From Desertivirga arenae (GTDB lineage: Bacteria > Bacteroidota > Bacteroidia > Sphingobacteriales > Sphingobacteriaceae): 64,000 nucleotides of DNA. The notes under the pieces were generated by a model. That model made no database searches. It was not told where the DNA came from and was given only the letters and a program-made list of their open reading frames with translations. This document shows, piece after piece, positions 30,636 to 43,473 of the stretch. The DNA lies in the NCBI RefSeq assembly GCF_017355785.1, contig NZ_JAFEWE010000001.1, positions 744,001-808,000 on the forward strand. The letters run 5' to 3'. Every line of letters starts with the position of its first letter. The stretch's first letter is position 1. The translations under genes were made by a program, and so were the position numbers.

Positions 30636-31367
30636 ATGGGAAAATATTGGATCACTACAGCCTTTCTCTTACTTTTCGTGCAAGCCTTTGCACAATTTAC
30701 GGATAGCACGCACTATTATCTCGGTTTTACTGGAACTGGAAATATAAACAAGACCAACACTGCTGATTCATATTTACTAAATAACGGTTTAAAATTTGGA
30801 GTTAGAGATCGCAAAGTGAGCCTCAACTTCAACAATTCCTGGCTTTTTGGAAAACAGGATCAGAAACTGACTAATAATGATTATACCACGAGTCTGGATT
30901 TTAACCTTAATCAGAAAAAGACCGGCTTTTACTATTGGGGACTTGGTAATTATACTACCAGCTATTCCCTGAAGATCATTAATCAGATGCAAACAGGACT
31001 GGGGTTTGCCTACACCTTCTTTGATGATGGGAAGAACCAGTTGAACCTGAGCAATGGTATCCTGTACGAAGCCAGTAAGATCAGATTGTCTGATACTACT
31101 TCAGAGAGTTATCAAACCTACCGGAATTCACTTCGGCTTTACTTCAAGTTTAGCTTGGGCAATGCTGTAGTGATAGATGGAATTGGTTTCCTTCAGAATT
31201 CTCTTAATTATAAGGAAGACTATATTATCCGGACGTCTTCATCCCTTTCATTTAAAATTAATAGATGGTTGAGCCTGAATACCAATATCAAGTACAACGA
31301 TATTGCTAAGACAGATCGGCAGAACCTGTTATTGAGCTACGGATTTAAAGCTGACCTATACTTTTAA
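30636..31367 (+). CDS. DUF481-family outer-membrane beta-barrel protein
   Basis: A 243-residue protein with a signal peptide (YWITTAFLLLFVQAFAQF) and about a dozen amphipathic strands (KVSLNFNNSWLFG, FYYWGLGNYTTSYSLKI, LNLSNGILYEASKI, LRLYFKFSLGNAVVIDG) ending in LSYGFKADLYF with a terminal Phe, as in outer-membrane barrels. This fits DUF481 (salt-induced outer-membrane protein). I chose the ATG at 30636 for its signal peptide and the -7 element just before it. Its stop overlaps the stop of the convergent cation transporter gene by 4 bases. Function is not known. Confidence 0.8.
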   Translation: MGKYWITTAFLLLFVQAFAQFTDSTHYYLGFTGTGNINKTNTADSYLLNNGLKFGVRDRKVSLNFNNSWLFGKQDQKLTNNDYTTSLDFNLNQKKTGFYYWGLGNYTTSYSLKIINQMQTGLGFAYTFFDDGKNQLNLSNGILYEASKIRLSDTTSESYQTYRNSLRLYFKFSLGNAVVIDGIGFLQNSLNYKEDYIIRTSSSLSFKINRWLSLNTNIKYNDIAKTDRQNLLLSYGFKADLYF

Positions 31368-32353
31368 TCTTTCGTATAGTGATAGTGCTTGAAGTTCCGT
31401 GTTACATTTTCTACCGTCCATGCAATGTCTTTCGTCTGAACCTCTGATCTGACTGGGCATTGGGGCATACGGCAGTAATGGCAACACTGCGGCAAACAAG
31501 GATCGGTATGAATAAAGAACTCCGTGTGAAGTCCCTTCCTGTTGATTAGCGTATCGATCTCGGAGATCTCATCGTGAACCTTATTTAGTTCGAAGTAGTA
31601 TGGTAACGTAACATGACAATCAATATGTAGTTCATGTCCATACGTTTGGGTTCGAAGGTTATGAATATCTATCCAGCTGTTATGTCTGTTCGAATTTAGT
31701 ATCTCAACCACTTGCTCCACTTTCACCAGATCCGATTCATCCATAAGTCCCCCTACAGATTTCCTTACCAGCTTATATCCTGAATAAATAATGTACAGTC
31801 CCATTATAATTGACAATATGCTGTCCAGATAATAAATGCCAGTAAAGTAGATTAGCAACAAACCGATAACGAGTCCCGCACTACTGTAAGCATCCGTCTG
31901 AAGATGTTTACCATCTGCGAAAAGAGTTAATGAATTCAGCTTCTTCGATTGCTTTACCATATAAAACCCCATACCATAATTTAAGAGGCCAGTAATCGCT
32001 ATGATGATGGTACCATCAAAGAGGTCTTTTACTTCTGTCGGAAAAAATAGATTATACCCTGATTTAAAAAGAATAAGAACGCCGGCAAGCAATATGAGTA
32101 TTCCTTCAACAAACATCGAGAAAAACTCCACTTTACCGTGCCCATAGGGATGGTTAACATCTTTTGGCTGTGAGGAAAGATAAATGCTGTAAAATGCAAA
32201 AGCACTTGCCAGCACATTCACTATACTTTCTGCCGCGTCGGTGAGAATGGCATTTGACTGGGTAATAAAAAACGCTGTGAATTTACCAAGCATTAACAAA
32301 ATGCTTAGACTAAGCGCAAATAGTATGATCTTCTTCTGAGATTGCAAACCCAT
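31364..32353 (-). CDS. cation diffusion facilitator transporter with Cys-rich tail
   Basis: A 329-residue CDF (Zn/Fe/Mn-type) exporter with about six membrane helices. Helix 2 has AILTDAAESIVNV with the paired acidic residues, followed by HPYGHGKVEFF. Helix 5 has HLQTDAYSSAG with the His-xxx-Asp metal site. After the cytoplasmic domain (HELHIDCHVTLPYY) comes an unusual tail with FIHTDPCLPQCCHYC and PQCPVR, giving at least five Cys in about 15 residues. I chose the ATG at 32353: an exact TAnnTTTG element lies just upstream, inside the longer open frame. The tail suggests metal sensing or delivery, which is inference. Confidence 0.88.
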   Translation of the reverse strand: MGLQSQKKIILFALSLSILLMLGKFTAFFITQSNAILTDAAESIVNVLASAFAFYSIYLSSQPKDVNHPYGHGKVEFFSMFVEGILILLAGVLILFKSGYNLFFPTEVKDLFDGTIIIAITGLLNYGMGFYMVKQSKKLNSLTLFADGKHLQTDAYSSAGLVIGLLLIYFTGIYYLDSILSIIMGLYIIYSGYKLVRKSVGGLMDESDLVKVEQVVEILNSNRHNSWIDIHNLRTQTYGHELHIDCHVTLPYYFELNKVHDEISEIDTLINRKGLHTEFFIHTDPCLPQCCHYCRMPQCPVRSEVQTKDIAWTVENVTRNFKHYHYTKD

Positions 32354-32365
32354 TAAATTAGGGTA

Positions 32366-32373
32366 CAAAAGTA
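32366..32373 (-). promoter_or_regulatory. -7 element of the CDF transporter gene
   Basis: TACTTTTG on the minus strand matches TAnnTTTG and ends 12 bases before the ATG at 32353. A TTTG lies 15 bases upstream of it, a short but possible -33 element. It supports the downstream start codon. Confidence 0.5.
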
Positions 32374-32454
32374 AAAGATAATAGTTTCCAAACTTCATCT
32401 TGATTTCATCTTTGCTCCAGAACTTAGCAATCAGAAAGAGATACGGAAGTTTTA

Positions 32455-34026
32455 ATGAGAAATATAAAGCTTAAAATATTTTTTGCTTTTGCACTAGCGC
32501 CTTTTGCATTGATCAGCTGCAAAAAAGATAAAGGTGCTAGTCCGGAAATAGTGGAGGCAAGCAGAACACAACTCACTTTAGACTCTATATTCCTATATGC
32601 CAAACAAACTTACCTTTGGAATGAGAGCCTTCCTTCCTATGAGGCCTTTAACCCTCGTTCTTATGTAAGCTCAGGAACAGATCTGAGTTTTTTCGAGAAA
32701 GAGCTATTATATATTACACGATATAAGATCAATAGCTCTACAGGTAAAGCTTACGAATACAGTGCAGACGAACCCAACAGCCCGAAATATTCCTACATAG
32801 ATGATAATAGTAATTCTGGAACTACATCTTTTGTTCCTTCAGCTTTTTCCTCTGTAGAGCTGGACGGGAAAGGAACAGACTTTGGAATGGGGCTCTCGGC
32901 TGTTACTGCCACTGATATAAGAATCAGATACGTTAATCCGTCCTCCCCTGCTGCCAATGCCGGGCTGAAAAGAGGAGATCGTATTGTTACTATCAACAAT
33001 CATACAGCTCGCGCGGATTCAGAAACTGAAGTAAACTATATAAATACTGCTTTTAATTCATCTACCATGAGCCTTGTTGTTCAAACCACAAACGGAACTA
33101 GCAGAACTGTAAGCCTCACTCAAGCATCCTATACTACAAGCCCGGTGATCAAAACAACAGTAATAACCAGGGGCAGCAAAAAGATTGGATATCTGGTATT
33201 TTCGCGATTTTCTACTTTATCTAATGCTGAAAGCGCACTTAATAATGCATTTGCAGGTTTTGCATCAGCAGGAGTTACTGATCTTGTTGTGGATCTGAGA
33301 TATAACGGAGGAGGTTATGTTGCTACAGCAGAACATTTGATCAACCTCATCGCTCCCTCATCGTTAAACGGGAAAGTGATGTATACTGAGTACTATAATG
33401 ATATGATGCAAAAAGGCAATGCCTCAATCCTTAAATATCAGCCTCTGTATGATTCTAACGACAAGATCCAGCCCTATACTTCCGGGGTAAATGGAAAGTA
33501 TGTTACTTATGCCGACGTGGATTATAGCATAAGCGGCAACACTTATAAGTTTAGTAAAAATGGTTCTTTAGACAATATAAAAACAGTATGCTTTATTGTT
33601 AGCGGGAATACTGCTTCAGCGAGCGAACTCACAATAAACTCTCTGAAACCTTATTTGACAGTGAAGTTGATCGGATCAACTACTTATGGAAAACCTGTTG
33701 GTTTTTTTGGGATAACTATTGATAAATATACTGTATACATGTCGAACTTCCAAAGCAGGAACGCAAATGGCGAGGGAGATTACTTTAGCGGCATGACGGC
33801 AGATATAACAGCAACAGATGACGTAACACGTGATTTCGGTGATGAAAGCGAAGTGTGCCTTTCAAAAGCACTTGCCTATTTAACTACCGGAACTACAATA
33901 AGTGCAAATACAACAATGAGCCTTAAAAATGGAACTACGGTTTCTTCAACTGAGGTGGTGCCTGTTGTAATTCCTACCGGAAATTCCTTCACGGGAATGG
34001 TGGAAAACCGGCACAAACTAAAATAG
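32455..34026 (+). CDS. S41-family (C-terminal processing) peptidase lipoprotein
   Basis: A 523-residue lipoprotein with lipobox ALISC (Cys22). After an N-terminal helical region (TYLWNESLPSYEAFNPRS) comes a PDZ domain (DFGMGLSAVTATDIRI, then PAANAGLKRGDRIVTINNH) and the S41 protease domain (VTDLVVDLRYNGGGYV). The nucleophile is probably Ser388 in SGNTASASELT, with Lys413 in TTYGKPVG as the general base, spaced 25 residues as in the Prc/CtpA family. It probably trims or degrades envelope proteins from the periplasmic or outer face. It stands alone and is closed by a two-way terminator shared with the Ter operon. Confidence 0.9.
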   Translation: MRNIKLKIFFAFALAPFALISCKKDKGASPEIVEASRTQLTLDSIFLYAKQTYLWNESLPSYEAFNPRSYVSSGTDLSFFEKELLYITRYKINSSTGKAYEYSADEPNSPKYSYIDDNSNSGTTSFVPSAFSSVELDGKGTDFGMGLSAVTATDIRIRYVNPSSPAANAGLKRGDRIVTINNHTARADSETEVNYINTAFNSSTMSLVVQTTNGTSRTVSLTQASYTTSPVIKTTVITRGSKKIGYLVFSRFSTLSNAESALNNAFAGFASAGVTDLVVDLRYNGGGYVATAEHLINLIAPSSLNGKVMYTEYYNDMMQKGNASILKYQPLYDSNDKIQPYTSGVNGKYVTYADVDYSISGNTYKFSKNGSLDNIKTVCFIVSGNTASASELTINSLKPYLTVKLIGSTTYGKPVGFFGITIDKYTVYMSNFQSRNANGEGDYFSGMTADITATDDVTRDFGDESEVCLSKALAYLTTGTTISANTTMSLKNGTTVSSTEVVPVVIPTGNSFTGMVENRHKLK

Positions 34027-34076
34027 TCCTTCCTTTATTTACCATACCCTATAAGTTAAGTTAGTTAGTTAAGTTT

Positions 34077-34110
34077 AAAAGCCGCAGGATCCCAAATCCT
34101 CCGGCTTTTT
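34077..34110. terminator. two-way terminator between S41 peptidase and Ter operon
   Basis: Arms AAAAGCCG and CGGCTTTTT with inner AGGAT/ATCCT and a CCCAA loop. It lies between two convergent genes and has A and T tracts on opposite sides, so it should stop both transcripts. Confidence 0.85.
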
Positions 34111-34128
34111 GCATTTTAAAATATTCCT

Positions 34129-34962
34129 TTAGTTGTTATCCACAATATCATCCTGATCTTCCAGCACGGGCTCCGCAGCATTAGATACATCTGCAGTAAT
34201 AATGTTCTTTTTAGGAAAATTAAAGAATTGAGATGTTAATACAGGAATAACAAATATGGCTACCGTAAATATGGAAACTGCCATATCCATGTGCTCGCTT
34301 TCTAAAAAATCTGCAAACGCAGTGCCTTTTGCGAAATGGGTATAAACAGAAGCTGACAGCTTCAATCCTAACACACCTATTACAATGAATGCAATAGCCT
34401 CAAGGAAAGTATATTTCTCCATCAATTTCACAAATCCCTGGGCAACAAAACGCATAGCTAATATTCCAATAAATACCCCTGTGTAGATCAGGAACATGTG
34501 ATCAGTAAATGCAACCGCTGCAAAGACATTATCAATGGAAAAAGCAAGGTCCATTACTTCCACTAAAGCTACCGTCGACCAGAAGTTACCAAGTAATCCA
34601 ACTGTTGATTTATATATCCAGCTTGAATTTTTATCTACGTTTTCGTCCTCTTCCTTATTGCTTGCTTTTCCCTTAAAGTAATCAAAAGCAAGATAGAGTA
34701 GATACAGTCCGCCCAGAGGCTTTAACCACCAGACCTTTACCAGCCACCCGGCTACCATCAAACAAAGTCCGCGGAATACATAGGCACCAATGATACCATA
34801 TTTCAGGGCCTTTTCGCGCTGATCTTTCGGCAGATCGAGCACCATAGTAGCTAGAACCGCTGCATTATCAACTGATAATAAGCTTTCAATAATGATCAGA
34901 TTAAGGATAATCAATAAACCTGCCTGAATATCGTCCCCCAGAAGAGTGTGTAAAAAGTCCAT
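34129..34962 (-). CDS. TerC-family integral membrane protein
   Basis: A 277-residue polytopic protein with about seven to nine membrane helices. The TerC signature acidic sites are visible: IIIESLLSVDNAAVLAT in helix 1 and VMDLAFSIDNVFAAVAF in the second repeat. Families of this kind are linked to tellurite resistance and to manganese or calcium export. It is the last gene of the Ter operon, 21 bases after the upstream stop. A charged stretch (KASNKEEDENVDKNSS) lies between helices at about residue 110, and the tail is acidic (VLEDQDDIVDNN). It may anchor the TerD proteins to the membrane, as proposed for the family. Confidence 0.92.
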   Translation of the reverse strand: MDFLHTLLGDDIQAGLLIILNLIIIESLLSVDNAAVLATMVLDLPKDQREKALKYGIIGAYVFRGLCLMVAGWLVKVWWLKPLGGLYLLYLAFDYFKGKASNKEEDENVDKNSSWIYKSTVGLLGNFWSTVALVEVMDLAFSIDNVFAAVAFTDHMFLIYTGVFIGILAMRFVAQGFVKLMEKYTFLEAIAFIVIGVLGLKLSASVYTHFAKGTAFADFLESEHMDMAVSIFTVAIFVIPVLTSQFFNFPKKNIITADVSNAAEPVLEDQDDIVDNN

Positions 34963-34983
34963 TTTTTAATTTGTTATTCGTGT

Positions 34984-35946
34984 TTAGATGCTGTCTGTGT
35001 TCAGCATTGTCTTTAAAATATTTGCCTGAACGTCAAAGTTGGCAATATTTTGAAGGAAATCTATATCTGAAATTTTTTTATAGTGTTCGGTGAGAAGATT
35101 TTTAATATCCGCGGGTATACTGGATTTTAAAACGTTAGCCCTGCTTTCAAGCTTGTCGTTTTTATCCTTTAGCTCGTGAATGATCCTCGACCTCTTCGAT
35201 AGCCCGGAAGTGAGATCAATATCTGCAAGCATGGTTATATCGAAAAGCAGGAACAAAGTCCGGTTAGGGTAATAAAAGAAATACCTTTCCTGATCCAGGA
35301 ACTTATAAACCTCCAATACCGAATCGCCGGCCTTCAGTCCGTAATAGAACTCAGTACGGAAATCATACTTACAAAGAAGCCCCATTAGCTTACGTTGTAT
35401 CGTTGCATAAGCATTCGTGTAAACTTCGTTTTGCTGGTATTCTGTCGCCCGAAACATTGCCTCAGGAGAAATATCAAAAAAGAAGTCCTGGGAATACCGG
35501 GCATTAAATGAATTGATGTTCCTTGAAAATGGATATTCCGTTGAGTCTTCAGATAAAAATTGGTAAAGCCTCCGCAAGGAGGTATTCATTTTTACCGCCT
35601 GCCTCTGTTTCTCAAGATTGAAACTACTTTCTGTTAAAACGGAATGATCCAGCTTGTTGATAAGGTCGTCATTAAGCTGTATCTCGTCGTACAGCAAACT
35701 CACATTACGTTCGTTGGTCTTCTTTATCTTCTTGAGCAATTCAATTACAGTAGCAGTATACTGCAGATGAAATAGTTCAAGCTTATTAATGTCGAGTTCG
35801 GGGTTGCTTTCAAATAGTTGATGTATTACCTGGCTTCTCAGATAAATCTTATAAATGATCTCATCGCTAAAAAATGCTGAATGCAGTTGCAGCTTTGTTA
35901 AATATTTATTCGATTCATCTAAAATGCCTGCCCGTATCTCGTCCAT
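34984..35946 (-). CDS. unknown Ter-operon protein, predicted helical
   Basis: A 320-residue soluble protein with no signal peptide or membrane span. It is rich in charged helices (VIELLKKIKKTNERNVSLLY, then LKDKNDKLESRANVLK) and has a central aromatic stretch (FFFDISPEAMF, FRTEFYYGLKAGDS, RYFFYYPNRTLFLLF). I do not recognise a domain. It is tightly placed: 10 bases after the TelA-like gene and 21 before TerC, inside the seven-gene operon. By position it is likely a partner of TelA or TerC in stress response. This is the least explained member of the operon. Confidence 0.8.
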   Translation of the reverse strand: MDEIRAGILDESNKYLTKLQLHSAFFSDEIIYKIYLRSQVIHQLFESNPELDINKLELFHLQYTATVIELLKKIKKTNERNVSLLYDEIQLNDDLINKLDHSVLTESSFNLEKQRQAVKMNTSLRRLYQFLSEDSTEYPFSRNINSFNARYSQDFFFDISPEAMFRATEYQQNEVYTNAYATIQRKLMGLLCKYDFRTEFYYGLKAGDSVLEVYKFLDQERYFFYYPNRTLFLLFDITMLADIDLTSGLSKRSRIIHELKDKNDKLESRANVLKSSIPADIKNLLTEHYKKISDIDFLQNIANFDVQANILKTMLNTDSI

Positions 35947-35956
35947 CCCGGCTCTA

Positions 35957-37054
35957 TCAATTTATATTAGTAACGTTCTTTTTAAGTTCTGTTTCTAAAG
36001 ATTGTAATTCGTTATTCAGGACCTTACGGTTCTGTGTACCTTCGTCATGGATGCGTTTTACCTCATTCAAAGTTTCGATAAGCGATTGTGTTGTACGTTT
36101 TAGCGTGTCAATCGATACAACTGTTTTTTCGTTTTCACGTGCCACGTCTATACTGTTCTGCTTCAGCAATTCTGCATTTTTCTGGAGAATGGTATTCGTG
36201 GTATCTGAAATCTTCTTCTGCATTTCCACATTAGCCTTCTGCCTTTGAAGCGCCACTGCAATAGTAAGCTGATTTTTCCAAACGGGGATAGTGGTTGAAA
36301 TAATTGATTGCGCTTTTTCTGCAATCGATGTATTATTATTTTGTACCACTCTGATCTGTGCCAGGGATTGTAGCATGATAAAACGAACTACTTTCATATC
36401 TGCCAGCCTTTTATCAAGACGACCTACAAAGTCCCTCAGATCCGCGATTTCGTAGTCATTATAGTTAGCAGGGGCCATTTCCATCTCAGCCAGCTTTTCA
36501 CTCAACTCCTTATGTTTAAGCTGACCGGCTATAATCAGGTCTTCCATCTGTTTGATGTAGGTTACATTACTATCAAACATGGTTTGCAATGAACTATTGT
36601 CCTTAATTGCGTTAAGACGTCCTGCCTTGATCTTATTGGTGATCTTATCTATGTTATTCACCACCGTATCATACTTCTGAAAAAGCTTCTTAGCATCGAA
36701 CACCAACTTATTCAGCAAGGGGATCTTAGACAGCAATTGCTTAAAGCCGCCCTGGTTTAACTCATCTACATCGATGTAATTCAGCTCGCTCAGAAGGTCA
36801 TTGATCAATCCACCAACCTCGCCCGAATTGTAGGTACGAACAGAGGTTAAGAATTCATTACTATATCTCTCCATTGAATTTTGCACCTCGGCGCCATAAT
36901 TCAATATTGAATTTACGTCTTTGCTTTCAAGGCTTTTACTTAGGCCCTCATACTTTGCTGCGTCCTGTGGATTAACAGCCGTTAAATCAACATTTCCATC
37001 CTTGTCTATTGCTTTTGATGGAAGCTGCTCTGTATTACCTGGAATTGTATCCAT
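35957..37054 (-). CDS. TelA/KlaA-family toxic anion resistance protein
   Basis: A 365-residue, strongly helical cytoplasmic protein. The TelA family features are the repeated coiled segments, SKIPLLNKLVFDAKKLFQKY, the DLRDFVGRLDKRLADMKVVR stretch, and SIISTTIPVWKNQLTIAVAL near residue 245. The family is found with TerD proteins and gives protection against tellurite and other stresses by an unknown mechanism. It lies 73 bases after the second TerD gene, the widest gap in this operon, and 10 bases before the unknown helical protein. Confidence 0.9.
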   Translation of the reverse strand: MDTIPGNTEQLPSKAIDKDGNVDLTAVNPQDAAKYEGLSKSLESKDVNSILNYGAEVQNSMERYSNEFLTSVRTYNSGEVGGLINDLLSELNYIDVDELNQGGFKQLLSKIPLLNKLVFDAKKLFQKYDTVVNNIDKITNKIKAGRLNAIKDNSSLQTMFDSNVTYIKQMEDLIIAGQLKHKELSEKLAEMEMAPANYNDYEIADLRDFVGRLDKRLADMKVVRFIMLQSLAQIRVVQNNNTSIAEKAQSIISTTIPVWKNQLTIAVALQRQKANVEMQKKISDTTNTILQKNAELLKQNSIDVARENEKTVVSIDTLKRTTQSLIETLNEVKRIHDEGTQNRKVLNNELQSLETELKKNVTNIN

Positions 37055-37127
37055 ATTTTTTCTATTAACAGGACCATCCTCAATCTACTTTCATCGAAAG
37101 AGTTGCAGGCGGTCCTGATGTTTATTT

Positions 37128-37742
37128 CTATAAGTAATTCTGACGAACTGTACTGATCGATTCTTCCAGTTTGCGATCCCTGGTTGGTTCTCCTATAGCA
37201 TTGAATTTCCATTCACCATTCTTCTTATAGAATACACCCATTACCATTGATGTGTGACCAGAGAAACCCGGATTATTAGCAATATCATATTTAGCGAATA
37301 CCTCATTAACCCGCTTGGGTGTTCCCTCGTAAATACGAATTGATGCAAAAGGGATTGAACCAAAATCCTGTCCGCGAAAACTATTAAGTACAAACGCTAC
37401 ATAAGATACGGAAGGGTTCAATCTGGAAAAATCCAGCGTAAGAACCTCGTTGTCGAGCCCGTCATCACCGTTCATATCTCCGGTTAAGTCGTCGCCACTA
37501 TGCTGAATTGCACTATCCTTAGAGCGAAGACTTCCGTAATATACGGTATCAAGATGCCTCTTATCTTCCGAATATAAGGCACAACTTCCATCCAGATCGA
37601 CAGCTTCTTTCGATTTACCAAAACCGAAGAGTCCTTTTTTTTCAATCGCCCCCCAATTAATTCCAACGCACACATTTTGCAATTTTGCACCATTTTCTTT
37701 TTCAAGGTTGATGCGCTGACCTTTTTGCAGATTAATAGCCAT
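37128..37742 (-). CDS. TerD-family protein (divergent paralog)
   Basis: A 204-residue TerD/CABP1-type beta-sandwich protein. It begins MAINLQKGQRINLEKE, the family start, and has the calcium-site-like blocks AVDLDGSCALYS, HSGDDLTGDMNGDDG and NGEWKFNAIGEP. It differs from its neighbour at 37757-38311 by an insert after residue 30 (KKGLFGFGKSKEAVD). It starts 14 bases after that paralog, and the two were probably made by duplication. TerD proteins bind calcium and are thought to assemble near TerC at the membrane. Confidence 0.92.
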   Translation of the reverse strand: MAINLQKGQRINLEKENGAKLQNVCVGINWGAIEKKGLFGFGKSKEAVDLDGSCALYSEDKRHLDTVYYGSLRSKDSAIQHSGDDLTGDMNGDDGLDNEVLTLDFSRLNPSVSYVAFVLNSFRGQDFGSIPFASIRIYEGTPKRVNEVFAKYDIANNPGFSGHTSMVMGVFYKKNGEWKFNAIGEPTRDRKLEESISTVRQNYL

Positions 37743-37756
37743 AAGTTGTGATAATT

Positions 37757-38311
37757 TTAGTTGTACTTATTTAGATAATCCTCTAAACCACCTTTCATTC
37801 CAACTCCCACTGCCTCAAATTTCCATTTTCCATCGCGTTTGTAGATCCTTCCAAATTCTACTGCAGTTTCAATGGAGAAATCCTCCTCAAGTTCATATTT
37901 TAAGAGTTCAGCATTGGTAGAAGCATCAAGAATCCTGACATAGGAATTCCTTACCTGTCCGAAATTTTGCTTTCTGCTTTCTGCCTCGTGAATAGTAACA
38001 ACCAAACACACCTCAGCAGCACGGGGATCGATTTTTGAAAGATCTACTTTGATCTGTTCATCGTCTCCTGCGCCCTCTCCAGTCAGATTATCTCCGGCAT
38101 GTTCCACCGATTGATCAGGAGACTTTTTATTGTTATAAAATACAAAGTGTTCATCTGATAATAGCTTCCTATTATCACCCAGAATAAATACCGATGCATC
38201 TAAATCAAAGCTTGCGCCTGTTGATGAACTGTTAGTATCCCAACCTAAGCCTACTATAAATTTGGGGGCATCTAATGCCTCCCTTTGTCCTTTTTGAAGA
38301 TTAATTGCCAT
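37757..38311 (-). CDS. TerD-family protein (canonical)
   Basis: A 184-residue TerD protein with the standard start MAINLQKGQREALDAPKF and the acidic metal-site blocks FDLDASVFIL, HAGDNLTGEGAGDDE and IHEAESRKQNFGQVRNSY, closing with DGKWKFEAVGVGM. Length and motifs match TerD/TerE. It overlaps the stop of the phosphoribosyltransferase-like gene by 11 bases, which points to coupled translation. It likely binds calcium and works with the paralog next to it. Confidence 0.94.
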   Translation of the reverse strand: MAINLQKGQREALDAPKFIVGLGWDTNSSSTGASFDLDASVFILGDNRKLLSDEHFVFYNNKKSPDQSVEHAGDNLTGEGAGDDEQIKVDLSKIDPRAAEVCLVVTIHEAESRKQNFGQVRNSYVRILDASTNAELLKYELEEDFSIETAVEFGRIYKRDGKWKFEAVGVGMKGGLEDYLNKYN

Positions 38312-39146
38312 TTACTATTAAATTAGCTTTGTTTATTAATAAGTTCTGTTTAATATATTTCAGGTTTTCAGAATAGTTTTCTATTCTGTGGTAACCGTTA
38401 CCGATCGCCATATTGTACAAGCTTTCTATAAACCTTTCGCTTTGATCTTTAATAAAAACTAAGAAACTGTCCCGATCGCTGTTAAGGATATACTTTACAA
38501 TCCTCGTGTTAATGTTAAAGTCTTCAGAAGTTACGATCGTACTAAGGTCGAAGATAGATTTTACAAAATGATAATTAAGAGTATTTTCGATAGTTGGATG
38601 GATTCCTTCATTGATTAGTTCCGCAAAGTATACCAGATATAGGTCATTATCCAGATTATTGCTTTTAATCATTCTATCGATCATCCGCTCATGACTTCCT
38701 GTTATCCTGATATCGTCAAGAAAGATCAGAACTTTGTTTTCAAGGAATGAACGGTCGATATGAAATGAATCATTTTCTATTAAAGCGAGCCTTTGCTTGG
38801 CATCCAGGTTACCATAATCCTCCTTATATGTTATGGTACGATGCACTTTTGCTTCCTGCACAACCGGATAGTGGTTTTCTGCCAGCCAGTAATTCAACTC
38901 GTAAACAAACTGAGTTTTCATGGCGAAGGTGGCAGTTGGAATAAATGCATATGGACTTGATATTACCACAATCTGCCTATGATCAACATTCTCCTCTAGT
39001 ACATTTTCTATAAATCCCTTTGCCAGTGCGTTTCCAAATTTCTTTGCAATCGCCCCGTCGCCGAATTTAAACCGGCTATACTCATCCGGATTAAACACAA
39101 AACCAGATGGATCACTGATCTTGTGTAAGGAATAGGTCTTTCTCAT
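38301..39146 (-). CDS. phosphoribosyltransferase-like protein of the Ter operon
   Basis: A 281-residue cytoplasmic protein. The type I phosphoribosyltransferase PRPP-binding loop is seen as KVLIFLDDIRITGSHE (about residues 138-153), preceded by strands IVVISSPYAFIPTATFAMK and the variable hood. Published comparative studies of Ter systems describe linked PRTase and HAD genes thought to make a nucleoside-like metabolite, and this pair fits. It overlaps the HAD stop by 4 bases and the TerD start by 11 bases. The loop has ITG-S-H where many enzymes have a TG-xT step. Substrate is unknown. Confidence 0.8.
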   Translation of the reverse strand: MRKTYSLHKISDPSGFVFNPDEYSRFKFGDGAIAKKFGNALAKGFIENVLEENVDHRQIVVISSPYAFIPTATFAMKTQFVYELNYWLAENHYPVVQEAKVHRTITYKEDYGNLDAKQRLALIENDSFHIDRSFLENKVLIFLDDIRITGSHERMIDRMIKSNNLDNDLYLVYFAELINEGIHPTIENTLNYHFVKSIFDLSTIVTSEDFNINTRIVKYILNSDRDSFLVFIKDQSERFIESLYNMAIGNGYHRIENYSENLKYIKQNLLINKANLIVNGN

Positions 39147-39844
39147 TTCTTTATTAAATCTGCAATTCTTAACTCATTACTATTTATTAAAAAAGTATTT
39201 ATTCCCACGGTTCTTGCTCCCTCTATATCAGCCATCACGTTATCCCCTACATGTATGATCTCCTCCGGATTAATTAGCTCTTTCCCTCTTCGTTCCACTA
39301 CCTTTGTCAGCATCATTTCAAAGAACTCCTTACTTGGTTTTGAAAGCCCTGCTTCATCAGAGTATAGTTGAAAATCGAAAAAAGCACTTAGCTGCAGCTC
39401 TTTCAAGACTTTCCGAAGTGTATTTCCTTTTATAAATCCTGTGTTACTCAATATGCTTAAAGAATGAGTGGAATTTTCTTTTAGATGTGAAAGCACAGGA
39501 ATTGTTTCATGGCAATAAACAAAAGGCAGATAATCATATAGCAAACCCTCCATATCCCTAAAAACCTGCTGAAGATCTACTTGTGATAAGGGTAAAGTAT
39601 TTTCATTAATAAGACTGATGACCATCAAATACATTTCATCCGCATCAATATTCTTACCCGTCTTCTCATTGATTGCATTACTCATCAGATCTACCTGACG
39701 AAAGATATAAATAACCTCTTCAACAGTCTTTTTCAGATGATTGAAATTTTTATAGAAATACGCTGCTCTTTTATTCTTGAACTCAGGATTAGACCGGATA
39801 AGTGTTAACCATAGATCAAAGGAATAATGCTTATAAAGGTTCAT
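39143..39844 (-). CDS. HAD-superfamily protein, first gene of the Ter operon
   Basis: A 233-residue HAD-fold protein. Motif I is YSFDLWLTLIR (nucleophile Asp10), motif II is LSILSNTGF, the motif III Lys lies in GLSKPSKEFFE, and motif IV is HVGDNVMADIEGA. The residue two after the nucleophile, normally the Asp acid/base in HAD phosphatases, is Trp12, so ordinary phosphatase chemistry may be changed. It starts the operon about 45 bases from a full promoter. Together with the PRTase-like neighbour it may act on a phosphorylated sugar or nucleotide. Confidence 0.85.
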   Translation of the reverse strand: MNLYKHYSFDLWLTLIRSNPEFKNKRAAYFYKNFNHLKKTVEEVIYIFRQVDLMSNAINEKTGKNIDADEMYLMVISLINENTLPLSQVDLQQVFRDMEGLLYDYLPFVYCHETIPVLSHLKENSTHSLSILSNTGFIKGNTLRKVLKELQLSAFFDFQLYSDEAGLSKPSKEFFEMMLTKVVERRGKELINPEEIIHVGDNVMADIEGARTVGINTFLINSNELRIADLIKK

Positions 39845-39889
39845 GAAAGATCAGGTATGTTGCTACTGTGCCTTAGTTTTAATGTCTAT

Positions 39890-39920
39890 CAAAACTAAGA
39901 TCAAAATTGATATTATCAAA
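39890..39920 (-). promoter_or_regulatory. promoter of the Ter operon
   Basis: On the minus strand, TTTG (complement at 39917-39920), a 19-base spacer and TAGTTTTG (39897 down to 39890) match the Bacteroidetes consensus TTTG-N19-TAnnTTTG at every position. Transcription would start near 39884, about 40 bases before the HAD start codon. It is the best promoter match I found in the window. Confidence 0.7.
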
Positions 39921-39948
39921 TATGGCAACACTTTTTATTTACCGGTTG

Positions 39949-42900
39949 CTACCGTAATAACATAACACTACCAGACAAGCTCTTCCTGCCATTGCGTGGA
40001 TCTAGAATATAATAATATGCTCCTTCAGGCAATGCCTGCCCATTAGATCTTCCATCCCAGGGATGTGCATACCCGATTGTTTGAAAAACTATCTGCCCAT
40101 TCCGGTTAAAGACTTTAATGGTACAGCCAGGCAAGCTCTCGAGATGCTCGATCTCCCATACGTCGTTGGCCCCATCATTATTCGGGGTAAAAGTGTTCGG
40201 GATATACGGAGTTCCGAGCACATCCACAGAAACAGTTGCACTCGAGGTACACCCTTTTTCGCTTATGACAGTAACGGTATAAGTCGTTTTACTGGCAGGT
40301 GAGGCTATAGGATTAAAAACATCATCTCGACTTAAACCTGTTGCAGGAGTCCATTTATAGGAGATAACAGGAATATCTGTTTCCGCTTGCAGCTGAGTTT
40401 GTCCGAAAGCTACAATCGTTTTATCATCTCCGGCATTTACCCTCGGTGTAACCCACACCATAATATCTTTCTTAAGCGATACATCGCAGCCATTAGCATT
40501 ACGGAAGGTATAAGTGATGGTATGAAGTCCCTCCCCCGCAACCCTTGGTTTGAATAAACCGCCCTCCGATATCCCGTCTCCGCTAAACCTGCCACTTCCA
40601 CTATAGTTAAAAGGATTGCTTGCGTTTATTTGAAGCGAAGGCACCTCCATGCAAATATCGGTTGGAGAATCAAAATCTACCTGGGCAATACCGTTTAATG
40701 TGATCGTTTCTATTTTTTCGTTAAAACATACAGAACCCGAATACGCAACCTGCTTTACTCTGACTGTTTTTGTCGCCGGGTTAAAGAAGGTTGGATATTT
40801 ATGAAAATACACTTTGCCGGGCTCCGGTTCTTCGTCCACTACTTTCAGCTCGGGCTCGTTGTCAAGGTCATAATACCACTCTACACGTGTAATAGAGCCG
40901 AAATTCACCCGGCTATTGTTAATAAAAGTCACTTCTTTATCGCTGCACTGAGCTCCTGCTGTTTGAAGGGAAAATGCGGCTATTGGAATTCCTCCATTTA
41001 CGGTGCAGGGTTTGGAGATCACTTCCGAACAGCCAAAAGCTGAGGTAACAGTAAGAGTGACAGTATACACACCGCTTGCCTGATAGCGATGCCTTCCATT
41101 TTTCTGCGTAGATATACTTCCATCCCCGAAATCCCAATGATACTGAAACTGGCTTTGGGAATTATCTGAAATAGTGGAAGCATCAAGGAATTCAGCATAA
41201 GCATCAGAAATACATACTTCAGGCAAAGTGAAGTCAACAACAGGTTTTGGATGCACAGTTATGCTTTTCTCTAAAATGGCCTGGCAACCGCGATCGGTTG
41301 TAACTAAGAGCTTTACTGTATAATTGCCAACGGAAGCAAAAGTATAATCGAAAGCAGCCGGAGACGCTTTAGTCAAAACATCACCATTACCCATTTCCCA
41401 AATCCAATTCAGTATTTGCCCGTCTACAGATGTTGATCCATCTGTAAAAACCACTTTCTCTCCTACACAGGCATTAGTATTGCTAAAAACCGGAACAGGC
41501 TTCTTGTCAATCCTGATAGTTTTATTCACCGATATTGGGCCACACGTAGTATTACTACGAATAGTGAGCGTTACGGTATATTCACCTCCTTCAATATATA
41601 CGTGGTGGGGGTTTTGCTCTTCTGATGTAGTTCCATCTCCAAACTCCCAGTGCCATTTCTTCAACTCCCGGCCTTTATTGTCACTATTATCTGTGAACGC
41701 TGTTTCTGCTCCCTGGCAACCTGGTACTACGGTAAAGTCAGGAACAGGGGGAGAATAGATTGAAAAGTCGATCGGTATTAGCTCTACGTCTCCGCATCCA
41801 TCTGAGTTCTGCTTTTCGGCAGTAACCTCAATAGTGTAATCCTTGCTTTCCGCAAATGAGATTTCACTTGGAACCTTATACACATAATAGATATTTCCAT
41901 TTAAGGTATACGATGAATCAGGCTGAGTATAAGTAGTTATCAACGGAGTAGTTCCGTTTTTAAAGTCCCAAACAAGACGTTTAACAGGATATACCAGATC
42001 AATGCGAAAAGTAAGATCTGCCCCCAGACAGCCGGAAGTAACCTGCTGATTGGAAGCTTTGTCTTTAACCAGCACATTCATCCCTTTTAAGTTTGTGCCT
42101 GCCGAGTATCCATAGGATTCTGCATTTCCAAATCCATAAGCTATAGCATTAAAACCCTGTTCAGCCTGCAAATGATGAACACCACCATTTGGGATAGACA
42201 ATTGAGCATATGAGTACAAAGGGTTTCCAGGCACGACACGAAAGTTGTACTGCTGAGAAACACCATCTATCTTGAAGGAAGCTGCAGCTTCGGTTTTGAT
42301 CACCACATTAATAAAGTGTGCCTGAATTGCATAAGCACTGGGAGAATAGACGGTTATATCATCAATATTTTGTTCTATCGGATTCAGATAGATCATCTCC
42401 GGGTCGCCGTATAGCTCCTGTATAGTTCCACAATCATAACTCTGGCTTTGGGTAACCGCATATTGTGCAACCTGTATTGGCTGATCAGATTCTATAACAT
42501 TAACCTGCTGTGACTTAAAATCATAATAGAAGTTGTTAACAAAATCGGAGGGATTAATAAGAATTCCATTAAGTTTAACTACTGCTGCAGGATTACTTTT
42601 TACAATCCTTATTACATCGTAATTCCTGGAGGCTAATGGCGCAGTAATAAAGTTTTTCCCCCAGGCAGCTGTAGGATACACTTGTTGAAATAGATTATCA
42701 GAACTCCCAACTGCGCCTGGCCGGCATCCTATACCAATCTTTGCACTTCCGGAAAAAACTGCAATACGCTTACAACTTCCATTGCCGGTACTGACAGACC
42801 GGATAACTGAACCGGTTAAGTCAGCGCCATAATAATTAATGCTTCGAGGACCGAACACTTCATCTCCGGTTAACTCTCCTAATACCTGGTAAACTTCGCC

Positions 42901-43473
42901 CTTAGACAGGTTAACTCTAAAAGTCTCCCCTGCTTTTCTCCCCCCTTTAGTATCGGCGGAAGGGGTAATATCCACTTCTGTATTATCCTCTGTTGCAACA
43001 ATAAAAAAGTAGGAATAAGCCTTATCTGCATTGGAAACCTGCTTGTAATTGATGGAATAATATTCTTTCCCCAGAGCTGAAACCGGAAGGATCAGTGAGG
43101 CGCCGGAGACATTTTGGTCGTAAATATGTCCATATACAACAATAGGCCGTTCTGCTGTAACATGAATACCTTTTTGAAATCCTCCTTCGTCATTTAAGAA
43201 TGCCTGCTGAGGTACATTTACAATAGTTATGGAGTTAGCCGTCACAGTGAAACTGTCAGAGTAACCAATACCCGGCACCTCTATCTTGCCACTGGTATTG
43301 ACGTCGGAAGTGATATAGAGCGCCATTTGTTGCCTGTTTACACTTACGTGTATTCCATAGCCAAGCCAGAACTCCTTCCCTTTATTAGAGGTATTTTGAG
43401 CAGTGGCAACAGCAGGTAGAACAAAAACAAACAGGCAAAGCAAAGCTCTGATGAGAAGCTTGATTGTAGTCAT
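39949..43473 (-). CDS. large PKD-repeat surface protein with T9SS type B tail
   Basis: A 1174-residue exported protein. After a signal peptide (LLCLFVFVLPAVATAQ) comes an IgGFc-binding-like region (about 30-460: GKEFWLGYGIHV, ERPIVVYGHIYDQ). PKD domains with the WEFGDG-type core follow at about 575-830 (WHWEFGDGTTSEEQNP, WIWEMGNGDVL, YHWDFGDGSISTQ). The last 85 residues (YIPNTFTPNNDGANDVWE to GSVMLLR) are the gliding-motility-associated type B T9SS sorting domain. It is probably displayed on the surface or released and may bind polymers or other cells. It stands alone, next to the glycan and sortase locus. Confidence 0.92.
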   Translation of the reverse strand: MTTIKLLIRALLCLFVFVLPAVATAQNTSNKGKEFWLGYGIHVSVNRQQMALYITSDVNTSGKIEVPGIGYSDSFTVTANSITIVNVPQQAFLNDEGGFQKGIHVTAERPIVVYGHIYDQNVSGASLILPVSALGKEYYSINYKQVSNADKAYSYFFIVATEDNTEVDITPSADTKGGRKAGETFRVNLSKGEVYQVLGELTGDEVFGPRSINYYGADLTGSVIRSVSTGNGSCKRIAVFSGSAKIGIGCRPGAVGSSDNLFQQVYPTAAWGKNFITAPLASRNYDVIRIVKSNPAAVVKLNGILINPSDFVNNFYYDFKSQQVNVIESDQPIQVAQYAVTQSQSYDCGTIQELYGDPEMIYLNPIEQNIDDITVYSPSAYAIQAHFINVVIKTEAAASFKIDGVSQQYNFRVVPGNPLYSYAQLSIPNGGVHHLQAEQGFNAIAYGFGNAESYGYSAGTNLKGMNVLVKDKASNQQVTSGCLGADLTFRIDLVYPVKRLVWDFKNGTTPLITTYTQPDSSYTLNGNIYYVYKVPSEISFAESKDYTIEVTAEKQNSDGCGDVELIPIDFSIYSPPVPDFTVVPGCQGAETAFTDNSDNKGRELKKWHWEFGDGTTSEEQNPHHVYIEGGEYTVTLTIRSNTTCGPISVNKTIRIDKKPVPVFSNTNACVGEKVVFTDGSTSVDGQILNWIWEMGNGDVLTKASPAAFDYTFASVGNYTVKLLVTTDRGCQAILEKSITVHPKPVVDFTLPEVCISDAYAEFLDASTISDNSQSQFQYHWDFGDGSISTQKNGRHRYQASGVYTVTLTVTSAFGCSEVISKPCTVNGGIPIAAFSLQTAGAQCSDKEVTFINNSRVNFGSITRVEWYYDLDNEPELKVVDEEPEPGKVYFHKYPTFFNPATKTVRVKQVAYSGSVCFNEKIETITLNGIAQVDFDSPTDICMEVPSLQINASNPFNYSGSGRFSGDGISEGGLFKPRVAGEGLHTITYTFRNANGCDVSLKKDIMVWVTPRVNAGDDKTIVAFGQTQLQAETDIPVISYKWTPATGLSRDDVFNPIASPASKTTYTVTVISEKGCTSSATVSVDVLGTPYIPNTFTPNNDGANDVWEIEHLESLPGCTIKVFNRNGQIVFQTIGYAHPWDGRSNGQALPEGAYYYILDPRNGRKSLSGSVMLLR

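Follow-up and report, generated by a model that had tools for sequence, protein, structure and literature searches.

Within a 64,000-nucleotide (nt) stretch of the Desertivirga arenae genome (contig NZ_JAFEWE010000001.1, positions 744,001-808,000, assembly GCF_017355785.1; hereafter the window) lies a seven-gene operon of the Ter type. Its seven open reading frames (ORFs) are all on the minus strand and span positions 39844 down to 34129. In 5' to 3' order they encode a HAD-superfamily protein (39143-39844; HAD_2, 41.3 bits against a cut-off of 23.8), a phosphoribosyltransferase (PRTase)-like protein of the ComF-like family PRTase_3 (PF15610; 38301-39146; 330.5 against 28.7 bits), two TerD-domain proteins (TerD1, 37757-38311, and TerD2, 37128-37742; 245.1 and 127.8 bits against 25.3), a TelA-family protein (35957-37054; 314.8 against 30 bits), an unnamed conserved protein of 320 amino acids that we call ORF6 (34984-35946; below every curated cut-off), and a TerC-family membrane protein of the YkoY subfamily (34129-34962; PF03741, 179.4 against 27.8 bits). 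ORF6 is thus the exception among seven proteins of which six reach Pfam cut-offs. A preliminary description of this locus had listed seven genes in this order, and the order holds: the HAD and PRTase_3 genes overlap by 4 nt and the PRTase_3 and TerD1 genes by 11 nt, while the gaps that follow are 14 nt (TerD1-TerD2), 73 nt (TerD2-TelA), 10 nt (TelA-ORF6) and 21 nt (ORF6-TerC).

The gene components that place an operon among Ter systems are found here, namely TerD-domain proteins, TerC, TelA and linked PRTase and HAD genes. TerD1 is related to solved TerD structures (3ibz and 2kxt/2kxv), and the TerD family includes calcium-binding members. A search of the whole genome found no TerD genes beyond the two in the operon, and three TerC matches over cut-off. 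The TerC protein belongs to the YkoY family in NCBIfam (TIGR03716, 245.6 bits against a cut-off of 138.5). The PRTase_3 protein does not reach the cut-off of the ComF family TIGR00201 (16.4 against 233.55 bits). Accessory, non-defining components of Ter systems are absent from the operon: none of the seven ORFs encodes TerB, TerF, TerY/vWA, a kinase or PP2C, and none encodes an ATP-grasp protein, as the preliminary description had noted. No protein in the D. arenae genome exceeds the ATPgrasp_Ter cut-off, the sole match (27.3 against 29.1 bits) lying on another contig.

We compared the operon with published Ter and TerC systems. In one published Ter model, a PRTase and a HAD enzyme make a nucleoside or nucleotide signal, TerD and TerB are possible sensors, TerC sits in the membrane with TelA or TerF beneath it, and Ter systems are linked to phage resistance (PMC7824862); the metabolite is described as predicted rather than identified (PMC7824862, PMC8115787). 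The assignment of the D. arenae locus to this type stands, as TerD, TerC, TelA and the PRTase with its HAD enzyme are common to the operon and to the systems described there, including that of Acinetobacter jumbo phage ME3, whereas the operon is without the TerB, TerF, TerY, vWA, kinase and PP2C components of those systems and has ORF6 in addition (PMC7824862). The terZABCDEF genes of a Klebsiella plasmid resemble the operon in that terC and terD occur together with a HAD gene linked to them and with a cluster of putative biosynthetic genes, but they form a larger system of two opposed operons, whereas the Desertivirga operon is compact and co-directional and contains TelA and ORF6 (PMC8115787). 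Among the TerC-family proteins MeeY (YkoY) and MeeF (YceF) of Bacillus subtilis, MeeY is described as a manganese exporter (PMC12096827), and the TerC protein of the operon exceeds the YkoY-family cut-off.

The evidence that these genes belong together comes in part from two genome samples, 151 genomes of the order to which the window belongs and 296 genomes from across Bacteroidota. In the first, ORF6 relatives are present in 59 genomes, all from the window's own family, and PRTase_3 in 58 genomes, every one of them among those 59; the single exception is genome G106. TelA occurs in 82 of the 151 genomes (81 over cut-off), including all 59 with ORF6. The remainder are 22 genomes of one genus, together with one weak match in genome G102, and the 22 led us to reject TelA as a sole marker of the operon type. 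Two of these 22 genomes were examined; in both, TelA is divergent (30-32% identical) and has a different neighbor gene, so they do not count against the coupling of ORF6 and TelA. At two loci from one genus of the family (L180, 5849-7747; L181, 6284-8182), a divergent TelA adjoins an unnamed protein of 261-262 amino acids, and the other operon genes were not seen in the stretches fetched. In the phylum sample, PRTase_3 over cut-off marks 8 genomes, and a profile of ORF6 picks out exactly these genomes, with its matches at the PRTase_3 loci; three further PRTase_3 matches fall below cut-off (E values 3e-4 to 1e-3). In the 7 phylum genomes besides that of the window, TerD, TelA, ORF6 and HAD are all found at the locus. 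ORF6 is therefore present in every genome with PRTase_3 over cut-off, 58/58 in the family sample and 8/8 in the phylum sample, and the description of its product as an orphan protein has to be given up.

The preliminary description had also proposed comparing gene order across Bacteroidota, and the outcome was a largely stable six-gene core and a mobile TerC gene. A scan of named genomes returned 121 ORF6 relatives, from which 80 loci were kept, among them loci from Pedobacter, Mucilaginibacter, Chitinophaga, Hufsiella, Arcticibacter and Taibaiella; these loci were fetched through ORF6, so operons that lack it are not counted. In 66 of the 80 loci, the order HAD-PRTase-TerD-TerD-TelA-ORF6 is kept with no other queried gene intervening; these counts cover eight queried genes, and some of the loci are truncated where a contig ends. 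No more than 700 nt separate ORF6 from TelA in 73/80 loci, and a TerC gene on the ORF6 strand is equally close in 44/80. The core is followed by TerC in the same orientation in 34/80 loci (counting low-identity TerC at any distance); TerC is also found upstream or on the other strand, or is not visible in the stretch. Seven Mucilaginibacter loci depart from the usual arrangement: within the stretch fetched, ORF6 is detached from the other genes or, in L090 and L093, upstream of them. TerC stays with the displaced ORF6 in six of them. All seven of these genomes have one ORF6 and one PRTase_3 gene, the latter beside HAD and TerD and, in five genomes, on a different contig from ORF6. Loci L043 (Chitinophaga) and L144 carry vWA, TerY_C and PP2C genes near the operon, L043 with a kinase and AIM24 as well; in view of these extra genes, operons of this type appear to vary in size, with the seven-gene form among the most compact.

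ORF6 reaches no curated cut-off in Pfam or NCBIfam. Its best matches are FlgN in Pfam (13.7 bits, below the cut-off of 30.5) and an NCBIfam family at 11.1 bits (cut-off 162). When 65 members of the family were scanned, FlgN was matched weakly in 24 (best E value 1e-4, over a helical stretch), and other families matched just 1-5 members each. A structural model built from 65 sequences (predicted local distance difference test score, pLDDT, 87; predicted template modeling score, pTM, 0.58) predicts long helices surrounding a small alpha/beta part at about residues 146-240, which when modeled alone gave a pLDDT of 84 and a pTM of 0.74. The best VIA-align 2 comparison of the ORF6 model had a Z score of 9.8 (2.6 A over 99 residues of a designed helical protein), and that of the central part a Z score of 3.7 (3.1 A over 50 residues), both levels that are common among unrelated pairs. 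No PDB sequence matched a 16-sequence ORF6 profile at an E value of 1. Among the matches listed in a literature search of open-licence PMC, no title concerned ORF6 or a HAD protein with the D-x-W motif described below.

Several proposed identities for ORF6 were set aside. A relationship to TelA-associated secretion chaperones was rejected, as the matches that name them have E values above 1 and, in our reading, concern a different protein named TelA. A counterpart of Bacillus YceG or XpaC is not supported: neither family turned up when the D. arenae protein was compared with Pfam, and neither is one of the 25 families listed for the 65 members, the profiles themselves not having been compared. 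We also rejected the view that ORF6 is a phage or plasmid gene, as no relatives were found in phage or plasmid searches and, among viral contigs, none of 92 stretches that matched an ORF6 pattern encodes a relative. Pointing the other way, residues 145-211 of ORF6 (about 35314-35514) weakly match phrog_14778, a small phage family without known function (E value 0.0025). In jumbo phages, an unnamed protein is encoded directly upstream of TelA (L151, 1322-2200; L160, 5956-6960; L156, 3587-4747), the latter two being 63% and 22% identical to that of L151; the neighbor in L149 was excluded from this set for an unconvincing alignment. Similarity between ORF6 and these phage proteins was rejected on an hhalign probability of 0.1 percent, with three sequences on the phage side. 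Since ORF6 still adjoins TelA in G106, the genome that lacks PRTase_3, it seems to belong with TerD, TelA and TerC.

We next consider the two predicted enzymes. Canonical HAD phosphatases have a D-x-D motif I, with a second aspartate two residues after the nucleophile. Motif I of the operon HAD is FDLWLTL, in which D10 is the nucleophile and W12 occupies the usual position of the second aspartate, so the canonical D-x-D rule does not hold for this protein. We aligned 106 HAD and 105 PRTase rows from Bacteroidota, phages and plasmids, in which some genomes appear twice and the rows are accordingly not all independent. In the 105 readable HAD rows, the nucleophile D10, S133, K169 and the metal-site acids D201 and D206 are invariant, and so is W12 (105/105); tryptophan occupies the same position in eight further phage loci. 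The D. arenae genome has 12 HAD_2 matches, of which seven have D-x-D, one has asparagine and two have glycine at the second position, and tryptophan is found in the operon HAD only; the twelfth has no aspartate nucleophile where one is expected. Because three HAD proteins of the same genome have asparagine or glycine there, loss of the second aspartate does not in itself appear unusual; what appears unusual in these alignments is the invariant tryptophan. In the PRTase_3 protein, the phosphoribosyl pyrophosphate (PRPP)-loop motif LIFLDDIRITG is conserved in relatives, and at each of the positions D144, D145, T149 and G150 no fewer than 95% of the 105 rows have the same residue. To judge from these residues, the predicted chemistry of the pair is plausible, and would be unlike that of a textbook HAD phosphatase.

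A search of 50,697 phage records found PRTase_3 relatives in 154, and among 72,556 plasmid records there were 18 with a relative. At all 14 phage loci chosen from the 154 records, and at 3/3 plasmid loci, the gene directly upstream of PRTase_3 is a HAD gene that fits the profile of the operon HAD. The phage pairs, from Stephanstirmvirinae and from Rhizobium, Brevundimonas, Caulobacter and Xanthomonas phages, share gene order, the D-x-W motif I and the PRTase_3 family with the operon, and differ from it in that no ORF6 relative was found with them. In the fetched stretches of 6.8-12.8 kb, a Ter gene was detected at 6/14 phage loci; two of the phages on the negative side of this count, Xanthomonas phage XaC1 and Brevundimonas phage Kabachok, do have TelA, but far from the pair. 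The pair is also present on a Rhizobium and a Sinorhizobium plasmid, where the stretches fetched yielded no Ter gene, and on a Hymenobacter plasmid the pair adjoins TerD, TerC and vWA genes, with ORF6 not detected. The preliminary description had made its reading depend on homologs of these two genes not lying mainly outside Ter surroundings. This is borne out within Bacteroidota, where PRTase_3 is coupled with ORF6 (58/58 and 8/8), but not beyond, where the pair is often without a Ter gene. The HAD-PRTase pair is a unit that is linked to Ter and not exclusive to it.

A further difference between phage pairs and the operon lies in what follows them. At six of the 14 phage loci, all Stephanstirmvirinae, a macrodomain gene comes after the PRTase gene, directly or one gene on (L149, 2759-3232; L155, 5776-6510; and L173, L174, L175 and L176); three of the six loci supplied the sequences for the macrodomain profile, and Pfam confirmed the two that were tested. 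Macrodomains are a fold that typically binds ADP-ribose, and this neighbor hints that the product of the pair is nucleotide- or ADP-ribose-like. Two annotations in the phage records deserve mention. A PRTase_3-family protein in L174 (2974-3810) is annotated as a Zot-like toxin, a label that its match to the PRTase_3 profile suggests is wrong, and the HAD gene of a Rhizobium phage (L150, 4049-4787) is annotated as two ORFs in a stretch with undetermined residues.

The operon had been described as running from one perfect consensus promoter to one two-way terminator. The Bacteroidota-type promoter consensus used here is TTTG-N19-TAnnTTTG. A string that fits it (TTTG-N19-TAGTTTTG) is indeed present on the minus strand at 39890-39920, a putative promoter whose perfection lies in the string match only: the 64-kb window contains 2 such strings against 1.96 expected from shuffled sequences, and the string was found in none of 88 regions of 300 nt upstream of HAD genes in relatives. 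The -7 box alone occurs in the last 120 nt of 3/88 regions against 5.35 expected, so it is not enriched. Certain genomes contribute two of these 88 regions, and where TerD or TerC genes come before HAD, as they do in some relatives, the promoter may sit further up. As the string is at chance frequency and unconserved, and as a co-directional gene (39949-43473) lies 104 nt upstream of HAD, a promoter at 39890-39920 is possible but unproven. The product of that neighbor is a large protein of the PKD/IgGFc-binding kind and bears a type IX secretion signal domain. The putative -7 box is overlapped by an inverted repeat at 39872-39899 (arms of 12 nt, 92% complementary; spacer of 4 nt), which may be an operator or a product of chance; the two copies of an 11-nt direct repeat (91% identity) are at 39859 and 39945. 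A sigma-70 scan was uninformative (20 promoter-like sites against 19.8 expected).

The other end of the operon fared better. Between TerC and a convergent S41 peptidase gene, an inverted repeat at 34077-34110 is a candidate two-way terminator, and the segment 34070-34118 folds into a hairpin of -17.1 kcal/mol on the plus strand and -20.1 kcal/mol on the minus strand, with a z score of -4.5 on both. This is consistent with the two-way terminator previously proposed, which we regard as likely. On the operon's own strand the T run 3' of the stem is short (TTTT), and a scan with a consensus terminator, which returned 7 sites against 5.2 expected, does not include this hairpin. Further downstream lies a cation-efflux transporter gene (31364-32398).

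We infer a single transcript for the seven genes from their spacing and conservation. The competing view is that the genes are not one transcription unit and that different parts are driven by internal promoters or by transcription that continues from the secreted-protein gene upstream. Read-through is possible because that gene is co-directional at 104 nt, and the unconserved promoter string, no more frequent than chance, the 73-nt gap before TelA and the seven loci in which ORF6 is separated or reordered all point the same way; the 4- and 11-nt overlaps, the gaps of 10-21 nt elsewhere and the conserved six-gene order speak for one unit, and we judge separate transcription to be improbable.

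Gene content, gene order, conservation and co-occurrence are the observed basis for our interpretation, which we hold to be the more probable one, that this is a compact Bacteroidota Ter stress-response operon in which a nucleotide-derived product would be linked to a membrane-associated assembly of TelA, ORF6, TerC and TerD. In this scheme, the PRTase_3 protein would use PRPP to attach ribose-5-phosphate to a base, after which the HAD protein would act on the product and yield a nucleotide-derived small molecule; the HAD substrate could alternatively be a pyrophosphate or an anomeric or anhydride phosphate, which would need no strong general acid. The two TerD proteins, with the helical TelA and ORF6, would form an assembly under the membrane together with TerC. 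ORF6 thereby joins the published scheme as a conserved TelA-side partner, and the HAD-PRTase genes are regarded as a portable unit. Stress might then alter the binding of metal or metabolite, which would change the assembly and in turn metal export or membrane state; we infer these steps from product to assembly to phenotype.

Several observations weigh against this interpretation. Because tryptophan replaces the usual second aspartate of HAD phosphatases, a phosphatase step is uncertain, and to call the operon HAD a phosphatase would be an assumption. The metabolite branch does not appear to be strictly required, because G106 has no PRTase_3 in its genome and no HAD relative at the locus and yet keeps TerD, TelA, ORF6 and TerC, the stretches fetched for two loci from metagenome-assembled genomes (L060 and L064) show the rest of the core but neither HAD nor PRTase, and a single gene of the pair is seen at each of L082 and L088. 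For ORF6, no family reaches its cut-off and Foldseek returned no match at an E value of 0.001 with either the whole model or the central part, and its proposed role follows from its position. MeeY of B. subtilis is reported to be under a yybP/ykoY riboswitch (PMC12096827), whereas no Rfam family, the manganese riboswitch included, reaches its gathering threshold in 33800-40500 around the Desertivirga operon.

Some of these points are what one would expect if TerC, TerD and TelA served metal or calcium homeostasis by handling a divalent metal at the membrane and the HAD-PRTase proteins were a nucleotide-salvage pair that merely shares the operon. The place of TerC in the YkoY manganese-export subfamily (PMC12096827), the two rhizobial plasmids and 8/14 phage loci at which the pair had no Ter gene detected with it, and the retention of the Ter part without PRTase_3 in G106 favor such an arrangement; against it stand the close association that PRTase_3 shows with ORF6 and TelA in Bacteroidota (58/59 and 8/8) and the Hymenobacter plasmid, where the pair stands beside TerD, TerC and vWA genes with no ORF6 detected. 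We consider it unlikely. Lower still we place a role in phage defense or superinfection exclusion, in which the pair would make an alarm nucleotide on infection and TelA, TerC and ORF6 would alter the membrane. Ter systems have a published link to phage resistance (PMC7824862), and phages themselves carry TelA (160 records), HAD-PRTase pairs and some other Ter genes; on the other side, none of the seven operon proteins matches a PADLOC model of the 2023 catalogue at an E value of 0.1, a search that uncatalogued systems would escape, the core order is conserved across the sampled species, which is less typical of fast-turnover defense islands, and ORF6 relatives were not found in the phage, plasmid or viral-contig searches.

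Going further than the stress-response interpretation, one may ask whether ORF6 founds an undescribed core-Ter family, inseparable from TerD and TelA in the Bacteroidota sampled, alongside a portable D-x-W HAD-PRTase_3 pair that makes a nucleotide- or ADP-ribose-like signal. The phage macrodomain protein may then bind, hide or destroy the signal of the pair. We regard this combined proposal as doubtful; if it were true, the chemistry of the HAD protein would be non-standard, in keeping with its D-x-W motif.

The operon is a compact variant of Ter, and its new elements are the unnamed conserved ORF6 and the D-x-W HAD protein. This small form occurs in many named Bacteroidota species from several families, and in it the proposed biosynthesis is reduced to two enzymes, a pair that holds together at loci with no Ter gene detected nearby. 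The metabolite idea is thereby directly testable in vitro, and the conserved ORF6 provides a defined new component for such work.

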